The notes under the pieces were generated by a model. The model saw only the letters and a program-made list of their open reading frames with translations, made no database searches and was not told the DNA's origin. Below are positions 19,701-61,700 of a stretch of DNA of 64,000 bases, piece after piece (position 1 is the first letter of the stretch; every line of letters begins with the position of its first letter). Source of the DNA: Phorcus lineatus (lineage: Eukaryota > Mollusca > Gastropoda > Trochida > Trochidae); the NCBI GenBank assembly GCA_921293015.1, contig OV121093.1, positions 24,872,622-24,936,621 on the forward strand, given 5' to 3'. A program made the position numbers and the translations under genes.

Positions 19701-22700
19701 TTTCATTTTTTATGATTTTTAAGCATCGGTCTGATTCAATGAGTTTAGTAAAGTGTGGAAAGAGGACCAAAATGAAAAGAATTTTGATCGCTCATTATTT
19801 GTAAAGGCAATGTATTTACATGCCTGATAATATCTTAATAAGTCTTTCTGAATGATTTTAAAATTGAGCTTCTTTCCCTTTCTGCTCATACTATATATAT
19901 TTTGTTTCACTGGTAAACAGATAGTATTTAATGGGTTATTATGTTTACCCTTAAAACCAAAAATAATATTTTCTGGTGTTAAATCAATAAATCCTTCAGC
20001 CAATTTATCTAGCCATTCTGACAACTCCCTCCACACTTTTCTCACATGAGTACACTCACACAGTAAGTGGATAATACTTTCAGGTATCTGCTTACAGAAA
20101 GAACACAATGGTGAATCAATATATCCAATCTTATACAAAAAATTATTGGTTGTAAGAATATGCTGAGTTATTTTATACTGAAACCATTTTAGATTAACAC
20201 TGTGTGTGCATCTATTAGGCATCATATTGATATTCTCCCAATCATTCTGTAGAAACTCCTTGCCAAATATTTCTTCCCATTTCAATTGGCCATTTGATTT
20301 ATTGAAACTAAATTGACATAATATTTGATAAAAATGTTTACTTTTATCAAGTTTTGAAATATTAAATGGAAGAATTGGGAAGGAGTATATGTTTTTCTCC
20401 TCAATGAATGTACAGTTTCTCTTATTAAAGTATTGATATGTTGCACTCTTAATACCTTGATATGTAAGAAAATCAACAGCAATGTCATATTTATCAATAA
20501 ATTCTTCATGAGACATAATAGTACCAGCTTCATTCATAATATTTCTTAAATATGTTAATTATGATATCAACAAATGAATTGGTGAATTTCAGGGAAATTT
20601 TGGGACCCTGCAGTATGAAATTATAGGGGATGGAATTTCTCCTGACTATTTCCGTATGAACAACAATGGAGTGGTGACGTTGAAGAGGGACCTGGAAGAC
20701 ACAGACAAGACAAACTTCCTGGTGAGTTGTTAACATGTGTCTCCAGAATCGAGACTTCTTGGTGAGTTGTTAACATGTGTCTATAGGATCGAGACTTCCT
20801 GGTGAGTTGTTAACATGTATCTATAGGATCGAGACTTCCTGGTGAGTTGTTAACATGTATCTATAGGATCGAGACTTCTTGGTGAGTTGTTAACATGTAT
20901 CTATAGGATCGAGACTTCCTGGTGAATTGTTAACATGTATCTATTGGAACAAGACTTCCTGGTGAGTTGTTAACATGTATCTATAGGATCGAGACTTCTT
21001 GGTGAGTTGTTAACATGTGTCTATAGGATCGAGACATCCTGGTGAGTTGTAACATGTATCTATAGGATCGAGACTTCTTGGTGAGTTGTTAACATGTGTC
21101 TATAGGATCGAGACTTCTTGGTGAGTTGTTAACATGTATCTATAGGATCGAGACTTCCTGGTGAGTTGTTAACATGTATCTATTGGAACAAGACTTCCTG
21201 GTGAGTTGTATACATGTATCTATAGGATCGAGACTTCCTGGTGAGTTGTTAACATGTATCTATAGGATCGACACTTCCTGGTGAGTTGTAGACATTTATC
21301 CGTAGAATCAATACTTCCTGGTTAGATGTCTCTAGGATTAAGACGTCAACTTTGCGTGTATGACTGAATATCTCAAGATGTAAATCAGTCAAAACCACTA
21401 CAAAATTCACTTCTGTTAGAAATGCTCTGAATTAAAGGTAAATACTGTCACTTGATTATGAATAACACGCTTTCCATATTTGAGACAAATAAAAACCGAA
21501 GCAACAATTACTCAAGAATGGTATACGCAGTACGCATTTTGCATAAGGTCATCATCACGCTCTTCCAATAGATTGAATTGCTTTAATGACTGCATGACGT
21601 GTGACCGTGGCTTTTAAAGGTACACAATTTTAAGAAAATTGAAAAAAAAAATGACGGTGTTTAAACTTCAAGTGATAAAAGGGATATTGATTTTAAGAAA
21701 AAGTACAAAGAAAGAATTATAACAAATTTGAATATGCTCATGCGAGGAGGTGGTAAGGCGTGGAGAGATAGCTCCCATAAAATGTTCATATTATGCAATA
21801 AATTGTTACTGAATGTGACTACAGGCAGCTATTGGCACGCAGATCACACTGAATTGCAGATAAAAAAAACTACGCAACTAAGACAACAAAAGACAGTGTC
21901 AGAGAAATAGCTGAGAGAGAGCAAAAGGAAGAGAACATTTTTTTTTCCACATTCATAATATTAAGATCGAGGATTTGAAAACACCAAGAAAGAAAGAACA
22001 CGACAAACAATGAGCACAGAATGAATGCAATAAGTCTATGGAATATCAGTTATGGTAAACATTTGGAGACAAAAAACTGATCTTGGTGTTATATATATAG
22101 ACTATAACTATAGATGGATTGGATATCCACAAAAGAAAAAACGATAAAATTGTAGTTTGATGAAATATTGACTTTGATTTTATATGGCTTGCATGGTTAA
22201 AGAAAAAGTATTGACGCAAAAAAAATGTTTATGAAAAAATACCCCAATGAACTAAATGAAATTAAAGAGAGATATTGTTACTAACTTGACTTTGTGAAAG
22301 AACGGGCGCAGGTGAAGAAAACAAACTTGACTTGACTTTGTAAAAGAACGGACGTAGATGAAGAAAACAAATGATATGATCATTGAAAAAGAGCTTGGAA
22401 TTCTTTTTTTATTGATATCATTAAATATTGACTTTAATATTTGAAAAACGACTGAATGAACTATTGAAATTTGACAGGAAAATAGCTTTGATGAAAATCT
22501 GATATGATATAAAAATCTGATGACGAATAGATATTCACTTTAACTTCATATTAACTTTCCAGACTGTATCCGTTTCCAAATTGAAAAGATTGACAAAATT
22601 AAAGACTTTGATAAAATCTTATTTTGAAATCTGTTTTAGAATAGATCACTTGAAGGAAGATGTATGAATAACGAAATACTGATGAAATGAACTGTCATTT

Positions 22701-34700: not shown

Positions 34701-37700
34701 AAACTTACCTTGGAACACCAGTATGTTGCCACTTCTTCTTCTTGCCAATATAGGGTATGGGAAGTTAAATTGGAATTTAAACTTTATAATGAACACTGAA
34801 TAAAACTAAATGTAATGTTTCACTTCATTAACATATTAGCTCTTTATCAAATGTATGTTTGTGATCATTTAATGTCAATTAATTCTTTTTTTTCGTTATT
34901 TGAGGTACATATTCCGCAGTATTTTGAGAGTTAAACAAACTGTTTTTTACCCAGCTATATGACCCATTATCAATTTGTGTTTGAATTTCAGTTTAAATGT
35001 TTTTACAAGTAAGTTGCGTAAAACACAATATTTTCCTGAGAAATTGAAGCAACAATAACAGTAACATATGAATAATCTGTATATTGTAACTTATCTTTTT
35101 CTATTAATACAACAATCAAATATTACCTCAGCTGTCATTCATGGAACTACTATTTCTTTCTTGATATCAATAAAATGGTTTCCACATAAATTGTACACTG
35201 CATCATGCTTAAACCTTGTAGCATATCTGTCTGTGGTTGTAAATGCCATCAATGTATTTATTGCGTTAAATAAGCACTGTATGTACTATATATGCACTAT
35301 ATGTCATTGACACATCTTGATGTAAATATACCTACAATTCCAGTAAAAATATAACTTTTAGGAGCAAATGTGGACACAGGGTCACATACAGACATGCATA
35401 TATGGGTCATTTTAGGCAATAAAGTTCATTAAATGAATATAAATACATGCAAATTTGATGTTACTGTAAGTCAGTAGACAAAATAACTTTGTGTTAATTC
35501 AAGAGCAAAAAATTGTCAATGAAAACTAAACCGAGGTAAGAATTTTCAACAAGTTGACAAATTTTGATAATACACATATATTATGGTCAAAGATAAGTGT
35601 TTAACTTTCAATTGTTGATTGTGACTGCAAGTTTTGTTTTGATTCAAGACCCCCAACAACAGAGTGACATACAATGCTACTGGCAGCGCTAACACAATGC
35701 GATTATTCCAAGTTAACAGCGCTAATGGAGACGTCATTGTCATCAACAACCTCATCTATGACACGGACACAGAGTATGAGGTAGGTAGCACTTTATCATT
35801 GTGTCTAACAACCTCATCCATGACACGGACACAGAGTATGAAAAAGGTAACACTTTATCATTGTGTCAAACCATATCATCTATGACACAAACCAGCATAG
35901 CGCAACTATTTGGGAACATTAAAACACACAACAAATGGTGTGGTCCAAGTGCCAATACAGAGAAACTTAGTACCTCTTGATTTTGTATTTCAGTTTTAAC
36001 AAAGATATAAAAGTAATACAAAAAGTTTTGTATGTTTAAAGCTAAGAGTGAGTGCTACTGATGGAGGGTCGCGACCACTGTCTGCCAATCCTTCTGCCTC
36101 CGTGTCAGTGACGGTGCTGAGAAACCTCTTTACTCCCCGGTTCGAATCCAGTAACTACGACACTGAAGTCACAAGGAATGACAATGTTGGGACTGTTGTG
36201 CAGACGGTTTCCGCCACCGACAGTGACACGCTGGTACTTTGTACTATATCATTAGATAAGGAAGAAAAGAATAATCACAAAGATTACAGAAACTATTTAA
36301 CAACTTTTTTGGGGAAAATGACAACTTGGAATTCCACTCAATAAAATGTTGCCTTGTTTATACGAAACTAGCAATATTTATATATCTATTATCAGGTGCC
36401 TTCTGAGATGATTGGCTGTATAGTTCAGGCATACTTCATCGAGACTAAACGATTGTGTAATTTGAATAATGTCCTGAATATGACTAATGTTTTGTTCCGC
36501 CGGGACATGTAAGTCACTGGAGACAGCTTAGTGTAACGATGAAGAATTGAAGATATTAGGTTCTCCTTGAAGAAAGCTATCATTATGAAAACACATGAAT
36601 GCGGAGAGCCTTTCCCAATGTTAACCTGTTTCAGTTGGCCTACAGAACTGTCACCTACGAGATAGTCAGTATGACCCTGCCAAGATTTAGAATAGACCAG
36701 GTAACAGGGGTCATCTCTCTCGACCGTCCCATCAACCGCGACACAGAGTCTTCATATGGGGTAAGTCACAAAATGTATATAGTTGGAAAGTCAGAGTGAA
36801 AGTGAACCAAATATATATTTCAGTAAAAATTATCCTTGTGTTAAATGATTCTGTCCTTATCTTTTTGTTCCCAACCTTTCTATGTTCCAAAACTGTTCCT
36901 GTGCCCAGAATATTTGCAACTGTGTAAATGGTTTCTTTCCAAAATATCGGGTGTCGGAAGTATGATTCTGTCCCAACCATTGGGAAGTTGTAGAGAGTCT
37001 TCTTCAGCCTTAGAGGTCATAAAGTTGTAATGTGTTTACCCATCAACAATATTGTTGAAAATTAATTAGTTTTTTTAAGTGGAAGCAATTTGATTGGTTC
37101 AACCAGCAGCATTTTCTTATGAAATATCTAAACATAAACATTATATTGTCATCTATTTCAGATAACAGTATTGGCAAGGGACGGAGGGACGCCCAACAAG
37201 ATAGCCTACACAACGTTTCGTGTCTCTGTCAACAGAAACCTCTTCAGGCCTGAATTCAGGCGTCCTAGTGGACCTGATTTTCGGGACTCAGTGCAAGTTA
37301 AGGAAGACATCGGTTTCAATGAAGTTGTATATGCCATGTCAGCAGTTGATGATGATGACCAGGTAGATAACAAGTGCTTATGACTTCACAATCAGTACAG
37401 TATAGAATCTAGCTACAATGACCAGGTAGATATCAAGTGTTTATGACTTCACAATCAGTACAGTATAGAATCTAGCTACAATGACCAGGTAGATAACAAG
37501 TGCTTATGACTTCACAATCAGTACAGTATAGAATCTAGCTACAATGACCAGGTAGATATCAAGTGCTTATGACTTCACAATCAGTACAGTATAGAATCTA
37601 GCTACAATGACCAGGTAGATACCAAGTGTTTATGACTTCACAATCAGTACAGTATAGAATCTAGCTACAATGACCAGGTAGATATCAAGTGCTTATGACT

Positions 37701-40700
37701 TCACAATCAGTACAGTATAGAATCTAGCTACAATGACCAGGTAGATAACAAGTGTTTATGACTTCACAATCAGTACAGTATAGAATCTAGCTACAATGAC
37801 CAGGTAGATAACAAGTGTTTATGACTTCACAATCAGTACAGTATAGAATCTAGCTACAATGACCAGGTAGATATCAAGTGCTTATGACTTCACAATCAGT
37901 ACAGTATAGAATCTAGCTACAATGACCAGGTAGATAACAAGTGTTTATGACTTCACAATCAGTCCAGTATAGAATCTAGCTACAATGACCAGGTAGATAA
38001 CAAGTGCTTATGACTTCACAATCAGTACAGTATAGAATCTAGCTACAATGACCAGGTAGATAACAAGTGCTTATGACTTCACAATCAGTACAGTATAGAA
38101 TCTAGCTACAATGACCAGGTAGATAACAAGTGCTTATGACTTCACAATCAGTACAGTATAGAATCTAGCTACAATGACCAGGTAGATAACAAGTGTTTAT
38201 GACTTCACAATCAGTACAGTATAGAATCTAGCTACAATGACCAGGTAGATAACAAGTGTTTATGACTTCACAATCAGTACAGTATAGAATCTAGCTGCAA
38301 TGACTAGGTAGATAACAAGTGCTTATGACTTCACAATCAGTACTGCATAAAATCTAGCTGCAAAGTCAGATGTCTTTTCAGAAGCTTAACTTAAGCAGAT
38401 ATTTGGGTTGATATTGATGAATAGGTGAGATGACTACAATACATGTAAATTAATGTGTGATTTTAGCGTCTATTCCAATAGAAGAACTGCTGCTACAAAA
38501 ACATTGTTTATTTGATATCGAAAACTTCAGATTTGTCTATTTGTTGATTCTATGTTTAAATGGATACACATGCAAATTGAAGTTGTTTTAATTCACATCA
38601 GCACAAACTCTTGTATAAGGGAGAAATCAAAAACAAATTAAGTTAAATAAAAGAATGATAAAGGATCTTTATTCCCCTACAATTTTTACATATGTAATTG
38701 TGAATAAATCAATCTCATTATATGTAACTTGATTTCTTGTTCCTCCCTCAACTAAACGCTCTATGGTGACAATTTTGGTATCAGTTGAACTCTTGGTTGC
38801 AGGCTCCCTACAACTCCCTGCGCTACTCAATGATTGGCGACCAGACAGCCTCAACCTACTTCATGATCAACCAGGACACCGGAGAGATCCGCATCAAGTC
38901 CTCTCTACTGTCAGACTCCAGCCTCCAGTACACCGTGAGTTGACATGTAACTCTTATCATCCATTTCAGTTCCTTTCTTAAATGGAATTTGAACCATTTG
39001 GTCGTGACAGTAAAAAGGATTGGCCATTATTACTTGATGGCATCAAATCCCCCGGCAAACAAAGGATATAGAAAAGATCTCCGGCTATCCGTGCATGCAG
39101 GCTTGTGTTTTCTTGACCAGAAGTCAAACTCCATAAAGCACACCTACTGACACTTTGTAGATAAAACAATCAACATTTGTACTTCTGCCATTTGGCTTTT
39201 CAACTTCTTTTTGCATCTATTTTTTGCTTTTTCCATTGAAACATTAGAACTTAGAATTTTATTTCTGGACCAGTACTCAAACACCAAGGCTTTGTTTACT
39301 GGGAATGAAACTCTGTATGTTGCATAAACATCATGTGTACTGGTGCCTTTGGAGTTTTCAACTTCTTCATCCTTTGCATTTTTCCTTTTTTGATGGAAAC
39401 ACAACTTCATTAGGCATATCTTATTGAAACTTGGTATAAAGAACATTTTTATGTGAAGTTGTGCCCTTTTAGTTTTGACTTCTTCAGAATAACATTTTTG
39501 GCTGTTTCAATGGAAACATATGCTACAATGCTGTTTCCAGGGAAGAATGTTAAAAGTTAACACCAAACACTAAGAAAGTGAAGTTTTTAGAGAGGCTTAT
39601 CTATCAGCTATTTATACAGTCTGCCATGTTTATTTGAGGGAAAATGACATAAAAAAGGCACTGTATTTTTACTTAATTCAGAACATATAGAAATAAACTA
39701 TATGTAGCGATAGAATATCCACAAATTGACGAATGATTTATGAATATACTAATCAACAATCCATGGTAATGCTGTAGCAAGGTTTTCAAATTTGTAGCGC
39801 CGATGAATGCCTTCATTTCTCATTCTCGTGTTATTTTACTGAGTGTCCACTCTCATTCATCTACTTGTAAAACCTAAATCAACCAAAATGTTACCCTCAG
39901 TACTATGTTTCAACTGGGTTATGTTACAAATCATTTACTGGTAACATACTTGTATAAACAGGAATATCCCCTTGAATTCCACACACATTTCAATGCTATT
40001 GACAGATACATGTATTTGTGAAGTGTTGTGGAATATATGTCAAGACATTACAAGTTAATGAGCTGCAAGCATTCTGTACATGAAACCTTCCAGCTCCTGG
40101 TGAACGTGAGTGACGGAGGCAGCCCCTCCCGTGTGTCCCAGACCACAGCTACCATCATCGTCAATGTGTACAGGAACCAGCACGCTCCACAATGGGTCGG
40201 ACTCCCCTACACTGCTCTGGTGCGAGAAGATGCTTTTGTTGCCAATTCCTTCTTGAGTGAGGTCACTCTGCTAGCTACTGATGCTGATAATCAAGTAAGT
40301 ATGCTATATAAGTCATTGTCTGATATAGTTACCTGTTTACCAGAGGCCAGTTGATGAATTATTGCAGTGCATGTTCACGGAAGTAAGGATAATGGAAATG
40401 GAAAAAACAACTCACCGCTAGTGAAATTTTCACAGTTTTGGACACTGATTGATGTTATATTCTTTTGTTGTTCGTATATTTATTTTCATGTCAGTATCAC
40501 TCTGGAATGGTGTAGACACAGACTTGTCTTTACTGGTGTTATGCCTGTTAATGTGAAACTTTATCACATGTCTCTGTTGAAAATCATTTAATTTGTGCCT
40601 ATTAGAGTTGAAAATTAATGTTTGAATATTAGAGGAAGACAACTTTAATTTAACATAGTTGGTGGTTCTTTCACCCATCTAAACTTTATAATCCTCTTGT

Positions 40701-43700
40701 ATTATCTGCATGGTTTTGTATACATATTTACTTACACCTTAGGACTTCGGTAGGAACAATCTCGACTTTGAAATTGATAACATTCTTAATACTTTAATTT
40801 CAGGGAACATTTGAGCGAGTTTCTTATGAAATCATCGGGGATGACCCAGCTCAAAACTTCTTCACATTATCTAACTCTGGGTTGATCCAAGTGCGGGAAT
40901 CTCTACAGTCCATTCAGGTGGACAGATTCTATGTATGTATTTTCAACTTTTGAAAGATTTTACTGTAACAAGATACAAACCATATTCCAGAGACTGCATT
41001 ATCGTTTGCCTTCATTATCATTTGCTTCCTTCCGATACCTAACCACACTGCCATTAGTCAATGTTTTCCATAGATACCAAACCACCCTGCCAATAGTCAA
41101 TGTTTTCCATAGATACCAAACCACCCTGCCAATAGTCAATGTTTTCCATAGATACCAAACCACCCTGCCAATAGTCAATGTTTTCCATAGATACCAAACC
41201 ACCCTGCCAATAGTCAATGTTTTCCATAGATAGCAAACCACCCTGCCAATAGTTAATGTTTTCCATAGATACCATACCACCCTGCCAATAGTTAATGTTT
41301 TCCATAGATACCAAAACACCCTGCCAATAGTCAATGTTTTCCATCCGATACCTAACTACCCTGCCAATAGTCAATGTTTTCCATCCGATACCAAAACACC
41401 CTGCCAATAGTCAATGTTTTCTATCCGATACCTAACTACCCTGCTAATAGACAATGTTTGCCTTCTAAGGACTGACCACCAACCAAGATTAGATGTAGTT
41501 TTAACTGAAATTCTAAGAAGATTTTATAATTCTGCAGTTAAGGGTCGTGGCCAGGGACAATGGCCAGCCACCGAAGACCAACACAACCATTGTGGTGATC
41601 ACCGTGGAGAGAAACCTACATAGGCCCAGATTAGGGCAGACCTCGTACAATATTGTCATTAACGAGACTCTGCCTGTCGGATCCACAGTCACCACCATCC
41701 TGGCTGAAGACGACGACACTGTGGTTCGTAACCATGCATACCTGACTTCTTTTATGCAAGCATGAAGTGACTCCATTTCTGTTATCTGACCTAGCTGTAA
41801 AGAATGAGTACTAGTGACAAAACAAAATTATTTCACGAGGGGTATAAACTTGATATGAAAGGTGAATGAGTTTTGTATCCTATTTATTACCCACGTTTTT
41901 TACAATGAAAACATCGTCAAATTCAAGTAAAATTTAGCTTTCCAAAAACCCTTTACGAAGTCCCATGTTGGTAATATATGGAGTGTATAGATTTGATTTG
42001 AGGTGATTGCATTGATAATAAGTTCTAGTCATTTCGTTATTTCTCTTCAAGTTGATACTGATCAAGTTGAAATAAAATCAAATGGTTTCATACAACCGTT
42101 TATGTCATACAAAATAAAATCAATTGGTTTTATACAACCGTTTATGTCATACAAAATAAAATCAATTGGTTTCATACAACCGTTTATGTCATACAAAATA
42201 AAATCAATTGGTTTTATACAACCGTTCATGTAATACAAAATAAAATCATTTGATTTTATACAACTGTTTATGTCATACAAAAAAAATCAATTGGTTTTAT
42301 ACAACCGTTTATGTCATTCAAAATAAAATCAATTGGTTTTATACAACCGTTTATATTATATACGAGTCACAATAAACAATTTACTAATTCACGTCAATTT
42401 CCATTTAGCCTAAATCCCATGCGTTCAATGCATTGAAGTAACTTTAACCATGTCTCTACTCGGCGATTCTCAAGTAAAAGTTTACGACACACTGCATTAA
42501 AAAATAATCCAAATATAGGGACTAATTAATTGTTGAAATAATTTCAATCAAGTATTACTTTTATGTAACGCAATCTTTTGCAGTCGTACATATATATTTT
42601 TTTATTTTTCTTAAATGACATCAGTGACCACAATACGCGCGCCTGACCTAAATATGCTGACATGATGCACTCACAATAAATGTTAAATTCATAAGAGTTG
42701 GAGTTTAACTGCGCTTTGCCTGGTTAAGTGTGATATCATAAAGATGAAATGTAATTCCTCTTTTTCTTTATTATATGATTGTTAAATGGAAAGTGCTGAT
42801 GTTGACTGTAATAAATGAAAGAATGTATGCATATTCGTGATCCAGTTTTGACTGCACGATGTCCTCAGTCCACTACTTTATTCTGATAAATTATTTTGCA
42901 GATGTTGGGAGAGTAATAAATAAAATACTATCACTTGTTAGATACAAAACCATCCACTTGTTACATAAATATATCATTAAAAGGAACATCATTTAGTATC
43001 CTCTATTTATGTTATACAAAAAATAATAATTTGGTTTTATAAAACAGTTTATGTTATACAAAAATGATAATTTTGGTTTTATTCAACAGTTTATGTTTTA
43101 CAAAAAATTATAGTTTGGTTTTTTACAACAGTTTATGTTATACAAAAAATCATAATTTTGGTTTTATACAACAGTTTATGTAAAATGAAAAATAATCGAT
43201 TGGTTTTATACAATGGTTTGGTGGTTGACCAAATTTACTTTGAAACTTTTCTAAAGACTTTGACTCATTGATTTGTGATTACTAAGAGGCTCTTCTTGAA
43301 TGAAATGTACAATTTATCAATGATTAATATACCTTTCAATCTGTAAGTCTCAGAATAACTAGAGATTCTTGAAATACAAAGCTGTTGTAGCTGCCTGAAA
43401 GTGTCACCATCAACATACTATTTTGTCATTACATTACATTACAGGTCAGCAACAATGAGTTTTATCTGGATTCCCCTACTCCTCCTCCCACTTGCCTTGG
43501 GTTGAGCTACTTTTATTCTGAATGGCCCTGTTCCTGGTAATGGAGCACGTGATGTTGTCCAAACCAAGGCAACGGGCCGTTCTTTAGAACTTGTGACACA
43601 CATTTAGCATTAATCATTTTAAGCAACTTCTCTGGTGATGTTGTCCAAACCAAGGTAATGGGCCGTTCTTTGGAACTTGTGACACACATTTAGCATTAAT

Positions 43701-49700: not shown

Positions 49701-52700
49701 TATCTTCTGCTTCCTGGTAATGTTAATATGACATTTAATAACAGGGCAATTTTAACGACTTGACGTATCAAATCATCGGTGATGACAGATCTTCAGATAT
49801 ATTCACCATCAATGAGGACAACGGTCGCATAAGTATACAACCTGGAGTTGATATCAGCCGCATCCCAGAGACTGAATTCAATGTGAGTTAGCTAAAACAC
49901 TTGGAAGAATTCTTTTTTGTTGTTGACAATTTAAATGTTATTTACAAAGAGTCTCAACAAATGAGGTGAAAATGAAGAATGTTTGGTTGATTTATGATAA
50001 CATGTAATTGTCAGATAAGAACTTGGAGAGTAATCATGTTCTAATGAATGTTGGTAACCGTCATATGAGAGATTGGTGAGATGACATTATGTTCTAAATG
50101 TATGTTGGTAACCGTCATATGAGAGATTGGTGAGATGACATTATGTTCTAAAGAATGTTGGTAACTGTCATATGAAAGATTGGTGAGATGATGTTATGTT
50201 CTAAAGAATTATGGTAACTGTCAGGTGATGATGGGTGAGATAACATTATGTTCTAATGAATGTTGGTTACCGTCATATGAGAGATTGATGAGATGACGTT
50301 ATGTTCTAAAGAATGTTGGTAACTGTCAGGTGATGATGGGTGAGATTACATTATGTTCTAATGAATGTTGGTAACCGTCATATGAGAGATTGATGAGATG
50401 ACGTTATGTTCTAATGAATGTTGGTAACTGTCAGGTGATGATGGGTGAGATAACATTATGTTCTAATGAATGTTGGTTACCGTCATATGAGAGATTGGTG
50501 AGATGACATCATGTTCTAATGTATGTTGGTAACCGTCAGGTGGTGATGGGTGAGATGACATTATGTTCGAATGAATGTTAGTAACCGTCAGGTGGTGACG
50601 GGTGAGATGACATAATGAGCTAATGAATGTTTGTTACTGTCATATGAGAGATTGGTGAGATGACATTAAATCCCAATGAATGTTGGTCACCGTCATGTGG
50701 TGATGGGTGAGATGACATTATGTTCTAATGAATGTTGGTAACTGTCAGGTGGTGATGGGTGAGATGACATTATGTTCTAATGAATGTTGGTAACCGTCAG
50801 GTAGTGATGGGGGAGATGACATTATGTTCTAATAAATTTTGGTAACCGTCAGGTGGTGATGGGTGAGATGACATTATGTTCTAATAAATGTTGGTAACTG
50901 TCGAATGAGAGATGGGTGAGATGACATGTTCTAATGAATGTTGGTAACTGTCAGGTGGTGATGGGTAGGATGACATTATGTTCTAATGAATATTGGTAAC
51001 CGTCAGGTGGTGATTTGTGAAATGACATTATGTTCTAATAAATGTTGGCAACTGTTAGCTGGTGATGGGTGAGATGACATTCTTTTCTAATGAATGTTGG
51101 TAACTGTCGAATGAGAGATGGTTGAGATGACATTATGTTCTAATGAATATTGGTAACCGTCAGGTGGTGATGGGTGAAATGACATTATGTTCTAATGAAT
51201 GTTGGCAACCGTTAGGTGGTGATGGGTGAGATGACATTCTGTTCTAATGAATGTTGGTAACTGTCAGGTGGTGATGGGTGAGATGACATTATGTTCGAGT
51301 GAATGTTGGTAACCGTCAGGTAGGGATGGGTAGGATGACATTATGTTCTAATGAATGTTGGTAACCGTCAGGTGAGAGTAGAGGCTAGAGATGGGGGAGG
51401 ACGGACCAGCCAACAGGTAGTCAAGGTTGTCATCCAGAGGAATCTGAACCCCCCTGAACTCCTGGACACTCCCTACCAGACGAGCATTCAAGAGATCACT
51501 GAAGTTGGTGCCAGCATCTTCACCCTCAGGGCAAGAGATACTGACCTCACTGTAAGTAGAGAAAAATGTTTATACAAATCATGATTATATATCGGTAAAA
51601 ATTGGAAAAGTCTTTACAAAGATTGATGGATCTGGAAACCGATATTGCTTTAAGAGCTTGTCACAGTATCATCTGTATAAATTGAGTTAAAGTACAAGGG
51701 TACCATTGCACAAAACACTAAGGTGACCTAAAGACACTAAGGTAGCCCTAGTGCAATGTTAAAAGATAGCACTAAGTTAACCTTAGTGTTAAGTTGTTTT
51801 GTGCAACGACCCCATGACCTTTAGCGTGTTGATCAATGTTATCTTATGAAATGTTTATGGTTTGTACATCATCCAAGTCTGATTGTTGGCTGTCGACTCT
51901 TCTAAATCAAATTATATCTGACGCTACTCTTACTGGGAAGGGTCTTTGTAAGGTTTTCATTTACCCGATTGCTTTTATGCCCTTACAGCAAATGAAACAA
52001 CAACTTAAAATGTGGTCAACAAGAAAATTCCTTTGTCTAACTGTTACAACCGTTGCCTTGCCTCAAGTGATCTACGAGAAAGAAATTATAATCACTGAAT
52101 CGAATGAAACTATACCAATGCAGATATGTCATGGTGTTATGTGATAGACAAGTAAGAAACATCACATCCTTACAATGCTTCAGCCTGAACTCTTGCCTAC
52201 CGCAACCAAATCTTCCTCAGTAAATTACAAACCATAACACACCCACAAAACTTAACAGACTACTCCGATCTTAGAAATAAAATTAGGCGGTGTTAAATTG
52301 GCAGACATCTGACAATATCAGTTCAACTTTATGTGGTTTCTGAGCTAACACAACCAACTAAAAGAGAGTTACTACTATATGATATTTTATCATCTATGCC
52401 TTTTGATAAGATGAATTTCAGTAAATCACAGAAATTGACACTAGCTCAATATTGAAAGACGAACACAAAATTTTTCTTACAATTATCTTTTTATAAAACC
52501 CTTTTTACCCAGGGTCCACACAATGAGTTCCGTTTCTACATCGATGGCCAAAGCCAAGATCTGACAGTGGACTCCATCAGTGGTGTAGTGAGACTAGCAC
52601 AGTCTCTGGCAGGTCGCACCATCTCTCGGCTACAGGTCAGTTTCTGTGTCTCTCTTGGCCTATAATGCATCACAGATAGAGGTCAGTTGATCCCAACAAG

Positions 52701-55700
52701 TACTTAATTCTCCATTGTCTATCAGATTTGAGTAATGTAAACATACCCACCAGGTGCCGGTGTATGTGGAGGATCTGGGATCCCCCCCACTACGCAGTGA
52801 GACGTCAAGGCTTCTTGTGGATGTCACACGCAACAGGTTTACTCCAAAGTTTGACAGTGAGGCTTACAACAGCACCCTCGTATCAACCAATCCATCCCAG
52901 TTCGTGATCCAAGTGTCGGCCAATGATAGCGACACAGAGGTAAGATTTGAAACTTGTTGATGATTTGAATATTCATATATGAAAGTGAGGTTATGAATTG
53001 TTGATGTAAGTCTGACACTAGTCCGTTGGGACAAACAAATATTGCTGAGGGCACAGAGGTACACATGTATAATGTTGAAACATGATATTTTTATCATATG
53101 GAGACTGTATAATCTTAAAATATCATGGAAGCCTGATAGAGCTGAATATTTGTAATTTCTCAACAATAGGATATAAATAGAACGAGGGCACATCCAGAAA
53201 TCCTGCACCATAACAAACACAAAATGATGATAGAACATACAAAGACACAATATCAAAAGACAACACATTTGTAAATGATAAATTTTCAATCCAGATTCCA
53301 TACAACTCTGTTACCTATGACATCATTGGTGACGACAGTGCTGACAACTTCTTCAACATCGATCCAACCTCCGGAATAATCACATCCAATGAGAACCTGG
53401 TGGACGATGACGCCGAGACGTATAAGGTTAGGTTAGCTCCATATCATCATGTCACTCCTTGTCATATACCATCTACATCCCATCAAGTCAGTTAGAAATG
53501 AAAATATTTCCAGAGGGGTGCAGCCATGAGTGAAATATTAACGATTCTCCTTCACAATATGTGATGAACAGGGCAAGTTTCAAGGGAAAACATATTTTGA
53601 ATTTATTTTAATACATGACTATTCATTACATGATCTGCATTGCAATTGACCTTTCATTGACCATAGATCATTGAAGAAAGCTGGTTTGAGAATGCAAGTG
53701 TTGTTAGGACATTGTGTGAGAATAAAGGTCTGCACATCTGAAGCCAGGTTTATTTCACTGTTAAGACAGGGTGTATCAATCTCAGGCATATGATAAACTT
53801 ATGAATTGTCAAAACACAATTTTAAAAAGGGAACTAAAGCATACCCAAACAGTCATAATGATCCGTATAGGAAAATGAACTTTGTTTACTTCAATGCATG
53901 CCATTGTGTGTATAAACATAGCTACTTAAGAATTCTCAACTCAACTTCCTTGAAGTTTCTTTTTTGATAGATACAAAAATTAATAAGAGAACCATCTTAA
54001 TGAGAGTAATACATTCAACATTTTTCATGCCAGAAATTGAAATATTTTGATATACCACATAGATAAGAGTGAGAGCAAGAGACCAGGGCAGCCCAAGCCG
54101 CACAGACACAACAGTGGTCACTGTCAACATTGACAGGAACCAGTTTGCTCCCAGCTTCCCCACCCCTGTCCTCAGTGCCAGGATTCTGGAGGTCCAGGAA
54201 CTGGGCGCTGTGTTTCTCACTGTACAAGCTGAGGACGGGGATCTACCGGTAGGTGCAACAACTCTTCTGATGTTTGAGTCATTCATCAGTCAATTCGCAC
54301 ATTGCACCAGCTCAAAGAGGAAGAGAAATATTGCAATATTGGTCCTTTCAGTGTTTTCTGTTTTGTGTATTCTATTAGTCCCTTAATTGCAATATTACCA
54401 TATATATTCAATGAGTTCTATTCCAAACTTTTAATTTCTTTTATTTTTCTTATTTATTAACATTACAGTTTTGATGAAACGCATTGAAATTGATGAAATA
54501 TGAATTTTCAAACAGTCAGTATCAATTGTAAGACACACTTACTCAGCCATCCTTTTGTATTTCAATATTTTAGGATAATTTTTGCCTAAACTTACAAACT
54601 TTTTCTTACAATAATTAAGTCATGCTGACAAATGCTCATATTTCAACTACAATTATTCCAATTGTATCCAAATATGGGATAGAGTAAGGAGTGTTTCTCA
54701 CAGCCAGCAGCTGGTAACTCAATCTGGGTGGGAAGTGGTCCACGCATCTCAAACTTAACATATCACCAGAACTTGCCCACATTCATTATGAGCTGCATAT
54801 CGTCTGTTTAAAAATGTCCATTTCAATCTGTTCAATCAATTATATTTTTCAATGAACATTTAATTGTAAGTAATATTTTTAAATGAACATTTATTAACAA
54901 ATTATTACCATATCCAAGATATAAACAGCTTTTGATTATTGTTACATAAAAACTAATAATAAAGATTTGGATGATTTAGCATGATGACCTTGGTTTGGTC
55001 AGTTGGCCATTGTAGGGTCACTTTTCATATTTTCTATAATGATTAAATTTTCTCAACAAAATCTCAAGCTACATAAACTAACATACAAATGTCACATATG
55101 ACAAAACACTTTATTTGAATCACAAGGGAAGCAAGGGGGGACATTGTGTAGTGATGTTTACAGTGAGATCTAACCTGTCTGAAGCTTGGGCAAACTGAAG
55201 TATATATATATATGAGACCAAGACTGTAATTCTGGTCTGCAGTATGAACAGTTAGAGCAGTGTATGTCAAATGTTAAAAGTTGTTTTAGGATATTGAGAA
55301 GTAATGGTTGTTTCTTTAATTTTTCAATGGTTATCATGTCGGTATTGTGACAATAAACAGGTTGATTTATGATTGAGAATGGGGCAGTGGCTCACTCCAA
55401 TGAAATAACCATAATTCTGGAAACTTATTTACAGCAGACTCTTGACAAATATTACTTTGTAGTGTTTAGTAGTCATTTAATTTGTTATCATGTACTTTTA
55501 ATCATTGATTGGGCTGCTTTTGATGATCAATGAGATTAGAACATGAGAGTTTGGTCATGTTACAAATAAGGATGCAAGTCTGTGTGCAAGGGGGTGTTTA
55601 CAAGTAAACTCTTGACCTAAGGTATTTTGACACTGATGTAAGCCACATCAAAACTAATTTCAAATACAACTTGCACTTCTTGTGTATGTAACTTCTAAAG

Positions 55701-58700
55701 TCTAAAGTCTAAAGTCACATCTAACTTAAAAGACTTGAAACATACTCTGTTACACTTGAATTTACTTGAACAAAATAAAAAAAAACTTCTATTCAACTAC
55801 TTATAGAACATTTATTTCATGGCTAGCAAGCTAGCAACAACCGTGTTATCTTCTATCAAATGTTTCTGCTCTGCAGGGAAGGAACAGTGACTTGACATAC
55901 TCCTTGATACGCACAGAGCGCTGTCGTCAATACTTCAGTATAACATCGGAAGGTGGCCTTTACGTCAAATCCGATTTGGTTACAGCCAGCAGTGAAACTT
56001 CTTCTTTCAATGTGAGTAGATTCAAATGTTTTAATGTCCATTTTAACTATGTACGCTGAGATCCTGACCACATTTGAGTGGTTATAACAACTGAACATGT
56101 GACTGGTCAGTCAGAACTGTATAGATTATTTTGAAAGTGTGTTGTAGATCTTAAATATCCTGCGTTAGCTATAAACATTGTATTGCATGAGTCTTGTGAG
56201 CAAGGTGTGAAACAGGGTCACCCTCCATACAGACAATATAGGAGTCTATTTGCCTTCAGTGATACGGAGAGTGAAATACACCTATCAACAATATATGAAA
56301 TACATAAGTAAAACTCAAATATCATAATTCAATGTCTGGTAATTACTTTCTAAAAAATAAAATTAATGTATCTGTCAAAAATACATATCTAAAGAGCAGA
56401 TGATAGATTGTATGGATGCAAAACAATAAAGAAAATCACCAAATATAAGATTCTCAATATATGGTACTGGTGTGATACTGTATCCAGATACGTGGCAGGT
56501 CACATGCTTACATGTCCTGGACTAACTGATAGCACAAGATGAAGAATCCACCCACATAAAGGCATGTAAACATAAATCAATGCCAGACATATGTTGAATC
56601 AAACTCTGACTATAAATAACCTACACCCTACCCTAAACAAATATATACATGTGTGATACATAAAATATACAATCAAAAAAGGCAATCCTGATCACATGTG
56701 ACTGGTCATAGCCAATAGGAAGGCAATCCTGAATGCATCTGACTGGTCATCTCCAATACAAAGGCAATCCTAAACACATGTGACTGGTCATAGCCAATAT
56801 GATGGCAATCCTGAACACATGTGACTGGTCATAGCCAATATGAAGGCAATCCTGAACACATATGTGACTGGTCATAGCCAATATGATGGCAATCCTAAAC
56901 ACATGCAACTGGTCATAGCCAATATGATGGCAATCCTAAACACATGTGACTGGTCATAGCCAATATGATGGCAATCCTGAACACATGTGACTGGTCATAG
57001 CCAATATGATGGCAATCCTAAACACATGTGACTGGTCATAGCCAATATGATGGCAATCCTGAACACATTTGACTGGTCATAGCCAATATGAAGGCAATCC
57101 TGAACACATGTGACTGGTCATAGCCAATATGATGGCAATCCTGAACACATGTGACTGGTCATAGCCAATGTAAAGGCAATCCTGAACACATGTGAATGGT
57201 CATAGCAAATATGAAGGCAATCCTGAACACATGTGACTGGTCATAGCCAATAGGAAGGCCATCCTGAATGCATGTGACTGGTCATTGCCAATACATAGGC
57301 AATCCTGAACACATGTAACTGGTCATAGCCAACATGAAGGCAATCCTAAACACATGTTACTGGTCATAGCCAATATGAAGGCAATCCTGAACACATGTGA
57401 ATGGTCATAGCTAATATTAAGGCAATCCTGAACACATGTGAATGGTCATAGCCAATAGGAAGGCAATCCTGAATGCATGTGACTGGTCATCGCCAATATG
57501 ATGGCAATCCTGAATACATGTGACTGGTCAAAGCAAATATGATGGCAATCCTAAACACATGTTACTGGTCATAGCCAATATGAAGGCCATCCTGAATGCA
57601 TGTGACTGGTCATTGCCAAAACATAGGCAATCCTGAACACATGTAACTGGTCATAGCCAATATGAAGGCAATCCTGAACACATGTGACTGGTCATAGCCA
57701 ATATTAAGGCAATCCTGAACACATGTGATTGGTCATAGCCAATAGGAAGGCAATCCTGAATGCATGAGACTGGTCAAAGCCACCCTTACCAAATTCACAA
57801 AAATACAATATTCCTACAACTAATTCAATCTTAACATAAGCTAGTAATTTTCTTTTAACTAGAAGGGAAACCTAAAATAATTCAGGATAAACAATTTGCT
57901 TTCAACATCACTCATGATAATTCCTGATTTGCACCATCTTTGAATACTTTATCGTTTATAATAGATAATTTTTTTCCCGCATACACCAACTAAGAAGGCC
58001 TGCATTTGTAGGGAATCTTATACAAGAAAGATGAATTTTGAACAGTGATTGAAAACAGTGAAATTTCAACTCTTTTTGCAAAATCATGCTTTTGCAGTGT
58101 GTAGTAATTGCAACTGACAGAGGAACTACTCCAAGGACTGCGTCTAATCAGGCTCGAGTTACCATCACGGTAGTCCGGAACACGCCACCGACCTTGACAT
58201 TGACACCAAACCCAGTTACCTTGCAAGAGAATGCTACACAAGGGTTTCTTGTCTCACAGATATCCATCAATGAACAGGACAGCGATGTAAGTGTTGTTTA
58301 TTTCTTGTTTCAATATTTGACAAAGCATGGTGTAACATCATCCTTGTTTAGTGGCTGGGTGTTGCCAGAAGTGAACCCAGTATCATGTGTAAAGGAAACT
58401 GTTTGTGACTGGGTGTTGCCAGAAGTGACCCCAGTATCATGTGTAAAGGAAACTGTTTGTGACTGGGTGTTGCCAGAAGTGACCCCAGTATCATGTGTAA
58501 AGGAAACTGTATGTGGCTGGGTGTTGCCAGAAGTGACCCCACTATCATGTGTAAAGGAAACTTGTCAATCATTTTCAGAATTTTGGACTTTACTGAATGG
58601 TCAAATCTTGTCAGTTTTTAAAATCTTCTTCAGCTGTTCAGATTATGAGTGATGGAAATACCCTTATGTATTTTTGGGGTTTTGAAAATGGTCAAATATT

Positions 58701-61700
58701 ATCACTTTCTTAAATTTTGCTGCAGGTGCCCTTCAACGATGTTTATGTGCAAATGATCGGTGATGGAAATGCCCCCAGTATCTTTGGTGTTTCTGATGAC
58801 GGACAAGAGATAAGGGTGACTGGTGCCGCTGATCTGGGGACTGATGTGCAGGAATTGTATAATGTATGTGGTCATACTTGTCAGAATCTGTCTTTGTGAA
58901 TGTTTCTTTGTTGTTGCTAACTTTGTACAAGCTACCAGTAACTGATTGAGTTGATTTTAGGCAACTTGGCTTGATGTTGAAGATCATTGCAATGTCAGTG
59001 TTGAGAAGGGCATAAATCATTAGTAAGAAATAAATAACAAAACGTAAGTGTTTACAGGAAAAATAATAGATTGTAAGTGTTTAAAGAATAATAATAAATT
59101 GTAAGTGTTTAAAGGATAATAATAAATTGTCAGTGTTTAAAGGATAATATTAATTGTAAGTGTTTAAAGGATAATAGTAATTGTAAGTGTTTAAAAGATA
59201 ATGGTAATTGTAAGTGTGTAAAGGATAATATTAATTGTAAGTGTTTAAAGGATAATATTAATTGTAAGTGTTTAAAGGATAAATAGAAGAGTGTGAGTGT
59301 AAGTAGAATTAGTTAATTGCAAACGGTTAAAAGAGAATTATTGATTCTGAGTTGCTAAAGGGGGGTAAATAAATTCTTAGTGCTACTAGAAATTGTTAGT
59401 GCTTTAGTTTTGTTCAAAACTTCATCTAAACCTTAGCAATAAGTAATAATACTAAGTAACAATGTTGATGCCATTCATAACTCCATTGATAAACACTTTG
59501 AGTCTTTAATATACTGCATGTCAAGCATTTATTCAATAGTCCATGATATCAATTTCCTGTCCAGCTGCGACTAGAAGTGAAGGATGGAGGTCGATCCAGC
59601 AAGTCTTCTACTGCTGTGTTAAGGGTCAACATCAATAGAAATCTGGCCACGCCAACATTTATCGGAGACACCGACCTGACCTTTGACATCCCTGAAAACA
59701 CACCTGTTGGAGAACTTGTCGTCGATCTGACTGCGGTGGATGGTGACACTAGGGTACTCAAATTGTTAGAATTCTGTACTAATTCTGACAAGAACTTCTT
59801 TCTTGGGGGCACTTAAAAAAACTTAACTGAATTCTTTCCTTCACTGGCAACAACAACATTTATAAGTTCATGAAGTCACCACATGATTCAAACATTGTCA
59901 ACAGGGTTGTGTATGTTATTGAGGTTTTTGTTTTGAATGGAGGGTCTACCAAGTTTGAATGGCTGTCTGTTATCTGAAACAACAATCCTAACTCCAGGTG
60001 AATGGGAACAAGTTATTTTAATACTGGTTTTGTTTGAAATTCATTACTTGAAATTCATTCTTCCACAGCCATAACTTGAAATTCATTCTTCCACGGCCAG
60101 GTACCCAACAACAAGCTGACCTACTTGGCCCAACTGCCATCCAGCCAGGGTGCCGAGTTCCTGTATGTACACCCAATTAATGGAGAGGTCAGGATTCAGC
60201 GATCGGTCATGGGCACAGCCATACGACAGCTCCAGGTAAGCACTGTTAAATCGCACTTATCAAGATTCACCCAAGTAATTAGTTTCCTTTGTCTGCACTG
60301 CAGTGGGAAAAAGGTCTAAAGACAGTGGCTTTTGAAGAACTCTAAGCTAATTATTTTTTTGTTAGGATGTAGAATATGAAATGTTTGCGAATGTTTTCAT
60401 TACTTATATGTTTGCTGTGTTGTTTTATTTTTAGGACTTTTAAGACCCATTTAAGTTGGATAGATAATAAATCAGATAAAACTTTTGTTTATTTTCATGG
60501 CATTTAATCATAAAGCTTTTCTTCGGTGCTTTAATTATCATCAACTTGCTTGGAGACAAAACTCTCTTATCTTCCCTTACTCTCTCTTCAGATAGTCTGA
60601 CTCGTATGAATATTGCTCTGCTTTCCAGTTTCCAGTGGTAGTTCAAGACGGTGGGTCTCCACCCAAGAGTGCTGTTGCCTCCATCACTGTAAACATCCTG
60701 CGGGATGTGACCAGCCTTGCCTTCCTTTCCTCCAACATCAACGAGCGTATCCAGGAAACCCAGGAGGTGCCCAGTCTGGTGACAACAGTCAGCGCTACTC
60801 CCTCGGTACGTGGGCATCACTCTTTCTCCTGCAACCTATTCAACAACAAACAATGACCAATGGGCCACTATCAAGAAAAAAAGATAACTTGTGTCTAATC
60901 TCAATGAAAGTTTTATTCTGTAGATTAATTCTGTAGTATTTTACTATGCGGATCTGCGTTCTCAAAGCTTTCTGTAACGTTGTAGATACAGATCTACGTA
61001 TCATGTCGTTGATCTTGTAACTAAAGTTTGATTATGCCAATACTGTATGTTCACCATTTCGTTAATGTTATCAGGTTAAACCTTAATCATGAATATTTAT
61101 CTAATGTAACGATCGATGTTGAATGATACTAGACACTGAAATTAAGATTTTCAACATGAATTATAATATGAATGGATTATTTCCGTCTTTATGATTGGCC
61201 TATTTGGTCACATGACAGCAATGACGTCAAGCGACGTCAACCAGTGTGGAACGTGAGAGGTTGATGTAACAATCCAAACACCTCTGGTGAATAAAAATAG
61301 ATTTAAAAAATCCTGGTCCACCGGAAATACTAGAAGGTTATTAAAGACCTACTTCATATAATGAAACAATTATAGATCAACTTCAGACTTGGTTGATCAA
61401 ATGATTTATCGACCTTAGACATGTGATATTCACCTTGGCTTCGACTCTCTGAATATCACATGTCCAAGGTAGATAAATCATTGGATCAACCTCACTTGAA
61501 GTGAATAATTGTTTATTGTGAGAATATTCAGCAGTCCAGATGTGTGTATATGAGGTTACAACTCACCCTGGCCACTGCCTAACTCCTCAAGTCCTCTGAC
61601 ACAACTGACCTCACTCCATTCCTCAGTTCAGCTCACCTGTCATGACCCACGCTATGGTCTGGGGCACCAACTATAGCCAGAGTGAGAATAATACTACTCT

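Follow-up and report, generated by a model that had tools for sequence, protein, structure and literature searches.

A 52-bp minisatellite repeating the acceptor of a cadherin exon in Phorcus lineatus, with exon 38 as the probable selector of the copy used

A 64,000-nucleotide stretch of the Phorcus lineatus genome (contig OV121093.1; C25:24872622-24936621, hereafter the window) carries part of a giant cadherin gene in which the intron preceding one exon, numbered 38 as in the initial annotation, is occupied by a 52-bp tandem array that runs into the exon and repeats its splice acceptor. We consider this array to be probably a junction-spanning ("mirage") minisatellite of which the copy touching the exon is selected by exon 38 itself. 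The array of about 26 copies ending on exon 38, as first annotated, was confirmed by Tandem Repeats Finder (TRF), which placed 25.6 copies at 50036-51375 on the forward strand with 83% matches and additionally called periods of 105 and 157, the start of the exon lying at 51372.

The joined exons around exon 38 match the Pfam Cadherin family (174 bits, in four stretches) and cadherin chains in the PDB, with CELSR1 as the best match. Most cadherin repeats of the gene are split between an A exon of about 60 codons and a B exon of about 43 codons, and the gene model comprised 50 A and 47 B exons (97 in total) over the window and the following 60 kb. The model was built from profiles made in this analysis, with thresholds of 25 bits (A) and 15 bits (B), and from crude splice scores, only phase-0 exons being sought; seven hits, six of them above threshold, were removed by a hand-made list because they lay inside larger exons, and some modelled ends use weak sites, for instance the donors at 41723 and 73678 and the acceptor at 36042. 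Not among the 97 are exons upstream of about 6.9 kb, one around 7.5 kb and a large open stretch near 113-115 kb. When a profile of the 46 sibling A exons, made without exon 38, was offered 20 residues of upstream array as well, the match (61 bits) began at profile position 1, which aligns to the valine encoded at 51372; by homology, this is the start of exon 38, where the initial annotation had put it. The earlier proposal that the last copy is the real site is thereby borne out at the level of the gene model, and that copy would be the site used. Exon 38 ends in a strong donor (score 9.19), and the donor of exon 37 also scores above the gene median (9.60 versus 8.15). Exon 38 has one full match in the assembly; a further locus, C2:36981151-37061381, contains many matches to it.

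Divided for alignment into 26 units, namely 25 upstream units and the last, the array showed a mean mutual identity of 83-86% among upstream units at lags 1 to 7. Two main unit types were recognized, one carrying CATATG and no AG (seven units) and one carrying CAGGTG (11 upstream units), and their alternation in units 3 to 10 fits the 105-bp period. The acceptor motif had been ascribed to most upstream units, a figure that proved too high: CAGGTG occurs in 11 of 25, or in 13 if CAGGTA is counted, and an AG stands in its column in 15 and is absent from ten. With the mean array column 91% conserved and the G of the AG and the base that follows it among the four least conserved columns (15/25 each), the decoy AG is not maintained by selection. 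The last unit departs from the consensus of the 25 others in none of the 32 columns compared, which comprise 29 intronic nucleotides and the next three exonic ones. The overlap with exon 38 amounts to 4 nt by TRF and probably about 7 nt when units are compared. An origin from a dispersed repeat or transposon was rejected, as two array probes searched against the 958-Mb genome of 74 contigs gave 11 and seven matches, all within the array and none outside, counts that are lower bounds, very common words being skipped by the search.

The acceptor of exon 38 had been described as lacking a pyrimidine tract, which holds in degree. Pyrimidines make up a fraction of 0.47 of its -20..-4 stretch, the median being 0.65, and a value this low or lower was found in nine of the 97 acceptors of the gene, exon 38 included, and in three of 86 acceptors of a paralogue of the same architecture (C2:3137001-3177000, minus strand), which has 93 model exons in 40 kb, seven of them, near the start, near the end and one long exon, being omitted from the acceptor set. 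A matrix trained on the paralogue ranked the exon 38 acceptor sixth from the bottom of 97 over -20..+3 and as the weakest of all over -20..-5. With the gene's own matrix over -20..+3, which speaks against the description, the site ranked 65th from the bottom in a leave-one-out test and 49th when the others were not left out; over -20..-5 it ranked 18th. A matrix from both gene and paralogue gave ranks of 21 (-20..+3) and 4 (-20..-5). Because the own-gene and paralogue-trained matrices disagree, a verdict from any single matrix was rejected. The pyrimidine region is thus at the weak end of the range, and the CAG core (-4..-1) is ordinary. An overlooked better acceptor, a possibility raised in the initial annotation, was not found outside the array between 49883 and 51600 with the own-gene matrix, the best other AG (6.66, at 51530 within exon 38) scoring below the real site (8.94).

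Relative to the decoys, the intronic part of the last copy gives it no advantage. Among the 13 upstream CAG copies, seven score as well as the real site or better with the own-gene matrix (-20..+3), and all 13 do so with the paralogue-trained matrix (-20..-1), so that whatever guides recognition should lie beyond the intronic portion that is repeated. The best candidate is exon 38, whose first 40 nt have a purine fraction of 0.75, the joint highest of the 97 exons together with exon 71812 (median 0.55) and reached by none of 86 paralogue exons; the sequence following the decoys has a purine fraction of 0.53-0.65. Read in the phase of exon 37, all 13 CAG decoys lead to a stop after 7-23 codons, the test having covered these decoys; two further upstream units carry TAG. 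Many units also contain a donor-like TGG/GTGAGA (score 6.76) ten nucleotides after the AG, and such pairs are probably too close together to define an exon.

The initial annotation had left recognition to either the exon or repeated branch points, of which the former stands as the best candidate and a special role of the repeated CTAATGA is unsupported. This motif, said to be in each unit, is present in 15 of 26 (14 of the 25 upstream), with CTAAT in 19 and CTAA in 23. Upstream of the 97 acceptors, neither CTAAT (three, versus 5.9 expected) nor CTRAY (14, versus 12.3) was enriched; CTAATGA is accordingly no demonstrated branch-point signal here. CTAAC, CTNAY, YTNAY and four related patterns likewise showed no clear enrichment there, and CTAATGA was rejected as a demonstrated branch point. 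A51351 in the last unit, 20 nt before the AG, may be a branch point.

We propose that a short stretch around the exon 38 acceptor was tandemly duplicated and then expanded on the intronic side through ordinary minisatellite turnover, the copies being tolerated because the one touching the exon would still yield normal mRNA. The last copy would be used because no other adjoins the purine-rich beginning of exon 38 and because its distance to a strong donor, 180 nt, is that of a normal exon. Exon definition is the general principle behind the exon-based choice and the decay of errors suggested here: the exon would be recognized as a unit, probably with SR proteins on its purine-rich start, and transcripts beginning the exon at an upstream copy would meet a premature stop and be destroyed. 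A trace of the first duplication may persist in the exon, in which the unit resembles a segment beyond the junction (51387-51399; Table 1) with a score of 11.0, first among the 97 exons (the next scoring 10.5) and attained by 1.55% of 2000 shuffles. Together with GTGAGAG at the exon start, this 13-nt match is suggestive, and only that, of a first duplication that took in the junction together with some 28 nt of the exon and was followed by the loss of 12 nt.

The intron itself seems older than the array, since the array-free paralogue appears to have an intron at the same position. No array of at least 60 bp was detected in its 40 kb, and 20 of 21 listed exon gaps measure 96-302 nt, the remaining one spanning omitted exons. 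Exon order, read between neighbours with better matches (47183 with 7237, 49420 with 7718 and 63137 with 11627), led to the pairing of exon 38 with paralogue exon 8344. This pairing we can only infer, because by BLAST alone exon 38 is closer to paralogue exons 30018, 13701 and 7237; A exons 52754 to 60629, which lie in between, likewise have their better BLAST matches in other paralogue exons. The intron before exon 8344 is 302 nt long and free of repeats, which speaks against a new intron in the gene only in so far as the pairing, made by order and not by best BLAST match, holds.

Several observations weigh against the proposed origin and mode of selection. The similarity between unit and exon is modest and concerns the AG-less units, those of the CAGGTG type reaching only 8.0, and joining the 51387-51399 match to the shared exon start requires a 12-nt gap. 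The own-gene matrix rates the acceptor as average or better, in disagreement with the paralogue-trained one, and the eight other acceptors with a pyrimidine content this low have no straddling array. Exon 71812, equally purine-rich, has no acceptor array, so that purine richness at the start is not in itself accompanied by one, and in exon 38 it is partly a consequence of the coding sequence. As the unit includes little exonic sequence, an array that grew within the intron until it reached the exon is an almost equally good account.

By that account, an intronic minisatellite grew until it met exon 38, its stop being set by coding selection and the acceptor being captured secondarily, which we regard as unlikely, though the best placed of the alternatives. 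The gene is rich in arrays: those of at least 60 bp take up 21% of the window, 24% of the preceding 30 kb and 13% of the following 60 kb, as compared with 2.6% in nine 10-kb samples chosen arbitrarily on four contigs and none in the 40 kb of the paralogue or in 20 kb of another cadherin locus. Out of 62 arrays, 42 were tested for straddling an exon-intron junction (11 under 60 bp and nine in the left flank were excluded), and nine did so, seven at donors and two at acceptors, four in the window and five beyond it; the array at exon 38, initially treated as that of a single odd exon, is one of these nine. Under uniform placement with 40 nt of exon tolerated, 5.65 would be expected (P 0.085), and an intronic origin is similarly compatible with the counts at tolerances of 5 nt (two versus 0.96, P 0.25) and 30 nt (eight versus 4.55, P 0.066) and with a chance of straddling of 0.35 for intron 37 alone. 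At 8 nt (five versus 1.48, P 0.013), 10 nt (five versus 1.81, P 0.029), 15 nt (seven versus 2.58, P 0.010) and 20 nt (eight versus 3.29, P 0.010), however, there is a 2.4-3.4 fold excess that speaks against it, the tolerance width having been varied after the fact. Strongly non-random straddling was rejected as a firm claim, given P values of 0.010-0.25 depending on tolerance, and straddling is at most moderately above chance. Also at odds with intronic growth are the full consensus of the last unit in its intronic part and the resemblance of the unit to exon 38 beyond the junction.

That the repeated acceptors are functional, the copies jointly raising the recruitment of the U2 small nuclear ribonucleoprotein or U2AF and their number tuning the inclusion of exon 38, appears improbable. 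Such a role would be in keeping with the weakness of the pyrimidine region, with the retention of an AG by 15 of the 25 upstream units and with the CTAA in 23 of 26; against it stand the poor conservation of the G of the AG and of the next base, the lack of CTRAY enrichment at acceptors of the gene and the array-free paralogue. Still less probable is recursive (ratchet) splicing, with exon 38 joined and then removed, or the units serving as stepping stones, and exon 38 optional: the exon start is the best donor (9.42) of the ten modelled exons that begin with GT, many units have TGG/GTGAGA after the AG, and exon 38 and its modelled neighbours are phase 0 in a model that sought only such exons, so that skipping would keep the frame, but the reconstituted donor AAT/GTGAGA (7.15) is weaker than the donor of exon 38, the opposite order being displayed by 67% of published sites as a tendency and not an absolute rule (PMC6110456), the intron of 1.5 kb is not long, and the decoys are poor donors at the AG itself (2.8-4.2, one 7.3).

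Table 1 Features at exon 38 and other junction-straddling arrays, in window-based positions (those above 64,000 lie past the window end).
Feature	Position	Strand	Details
Array with donor	20714-21329	+	exon 20593-20721; 40 bp x 15.4; 8 exact downstream donor 9-mer copies
Array with donor	35745-35888	+	covers 36 nt at the end of exon 35649-35780 plus its donor; 62 bp x 2.3
Array with donor	37355-38363	+	exon 37162-37362; 63 bp x 16; 14 exact downstream donor 9-mer copies
Exon 37, B-type half of cadherin repeat	49745-49882	+	phase 0; donor AAT/gtgagt; B-exon profile
Intron 37	49883-51371	+	1489 nt; filled by the array except first 153 nt
Upstream CAG/GT copies (13)	50222-51321	+	11 CAGGTG, 2 CAGGTA; motif count, scores, reading-frame test
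First bases after decoy AG	50225, 50330, 50435, 50540, 50592, 50749, 50801, 50853, 50955, 51007, 51164, 51268, 51320	+	
Last unit, intronic part	51343-51371	+	CTAAT 51348-51352; acceptor CAG 51369-51371
CAG/GTGAGA, juxtaposed AG/GT	51369-51377	+	exon 38 acceptor, also donor-like 9-mer; score 9.42, median 8.15
Exon 38, A-type half of cadherin repeat	51372-51551	+	180 nt; phase 0; donor ACT/gtaagt
Exon 38 segment AGAGATGGGGGAG	51387-51399	+	12/13 match to post-AG half of AG-less unit type
Array with donor	70989-71699		10 exact downstream donor 9-mer copies
Second acceptor array	97464-97906		C25:24970085-24970527; 33.5 kb past window end; 39 bp x 11.3
Array with donor	105975-106127		2 exact downstream donor 9-mer copies
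Array with donor	111330-111738		5 exact downstream donor 9-mer copies
Array with donor	120171-120370		2 exact downstream donor 9-mer copies

Downstream copies of the donor 9-mer were counted at six of the seven donor arrays, 35745-35888 standing outside the count. In the second acceptor array, which precedes exon 97890, ten of 11 copies, the real one included, have acceptor scores of 12.6-14.0, the ten upstream copies scoring 7.8-14.0 against 12.8 for the real site; the four nearest copies are in frame and open, and their use would add 13, 26, 39 or 52 residues. Given these strong copies, arrays of this kind do not in general require that the tract be missing. A 28-bp repeat at 60034-60099 stops 1 nt short of exon 60101 and contains a CCACAG that resembles a second acceptor. 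As for exon 38, the stricter proposal that its pyrimidine-poor acceptor works only when joined to the purine-rich exon start, the exon-less copies being inert, is a tentative one that we hold to be rather doubtful; if true, it would explain how a 26-fold amplification of the acceptor could be harmless.

Structures of this kind are known from the amphioxus mirage minisatellites and related human cases. The former were described in Adh3, the globins BflGb6 and BflGb9, TnC and PGBD5, and these reports (PMC3087553, PMC3902484) describe normal splicing, reported or suggested, and somatic and haplotype differences in length. As in those genes, the unit of the exon 38 array spans the junction, here the acceptor at 51371/51372, though with a small exonic share, and the duplicates carry splice signals, many of them intact and not all (AG in 15 of 25 upstream units). 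The present case differs in its 958-Mb genome, in its approximately 26 copies of 52 bp with few exonic nucleotides, in the nine junction-straddling arrays of one gene, in the weak pyrimidine region and in the stop after every intact CAG decoy. Human duplicated genes likewise have minisatellite-sized repeats at exon-intron boundaries that are able to activate cryptic splice sites but these (PMC2812944) lengthen exons or introns or create new introns; here the intron seems to predate the array. In the AGGT model of intron gain through tandem duplication, with the potato RdRp as a case (PMC4974935), a segment over an intron-exon boundary is also duplicated; here, in contrast, no new intron is predicted and the copies lie within an existing one. 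With recursive splice sites (PMC6110456), the start of exon 38 shares a juxtaposed AG/GT with a strong donor half, and it differs from them in opening an ordinary exon, in following a short intron and in a reconstituted donor weaker than the exon's own. In open-licence literature, judged by titles and the beginnings of abstracts, no such arrays were shown in a mollusc or in a cadherin gene. The additions made here are the size of the array, the number of such arrays in one gene and the contrast linked to the exon.

Without engineered constructs, it is difficult to investigate how one splice site is chosen over neighbours equal to it. A single gene here offers donor and acceptor arrays with similar or identical copies that differ in the adjoining exon, and the same genome holds an array-free paralogue for comparison. 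If the exon-less copies of the exon 38 acceptor are indeed inert, the array would serve as a competition assay provided by nature; acceptors that depend on an enhancer would be freely amplifiable, and those with strong tracts would be so where wrong use preserves the frame, as it would with the four copies closest to the exon at 97890. The case would extend mirages beyond the lancelet genes of the amphioxus reports and connect them with a gene in which minisatellites abound. Carrying several such arrays, this gene is well suited as a natural test of how decoys are ignored by splicing.
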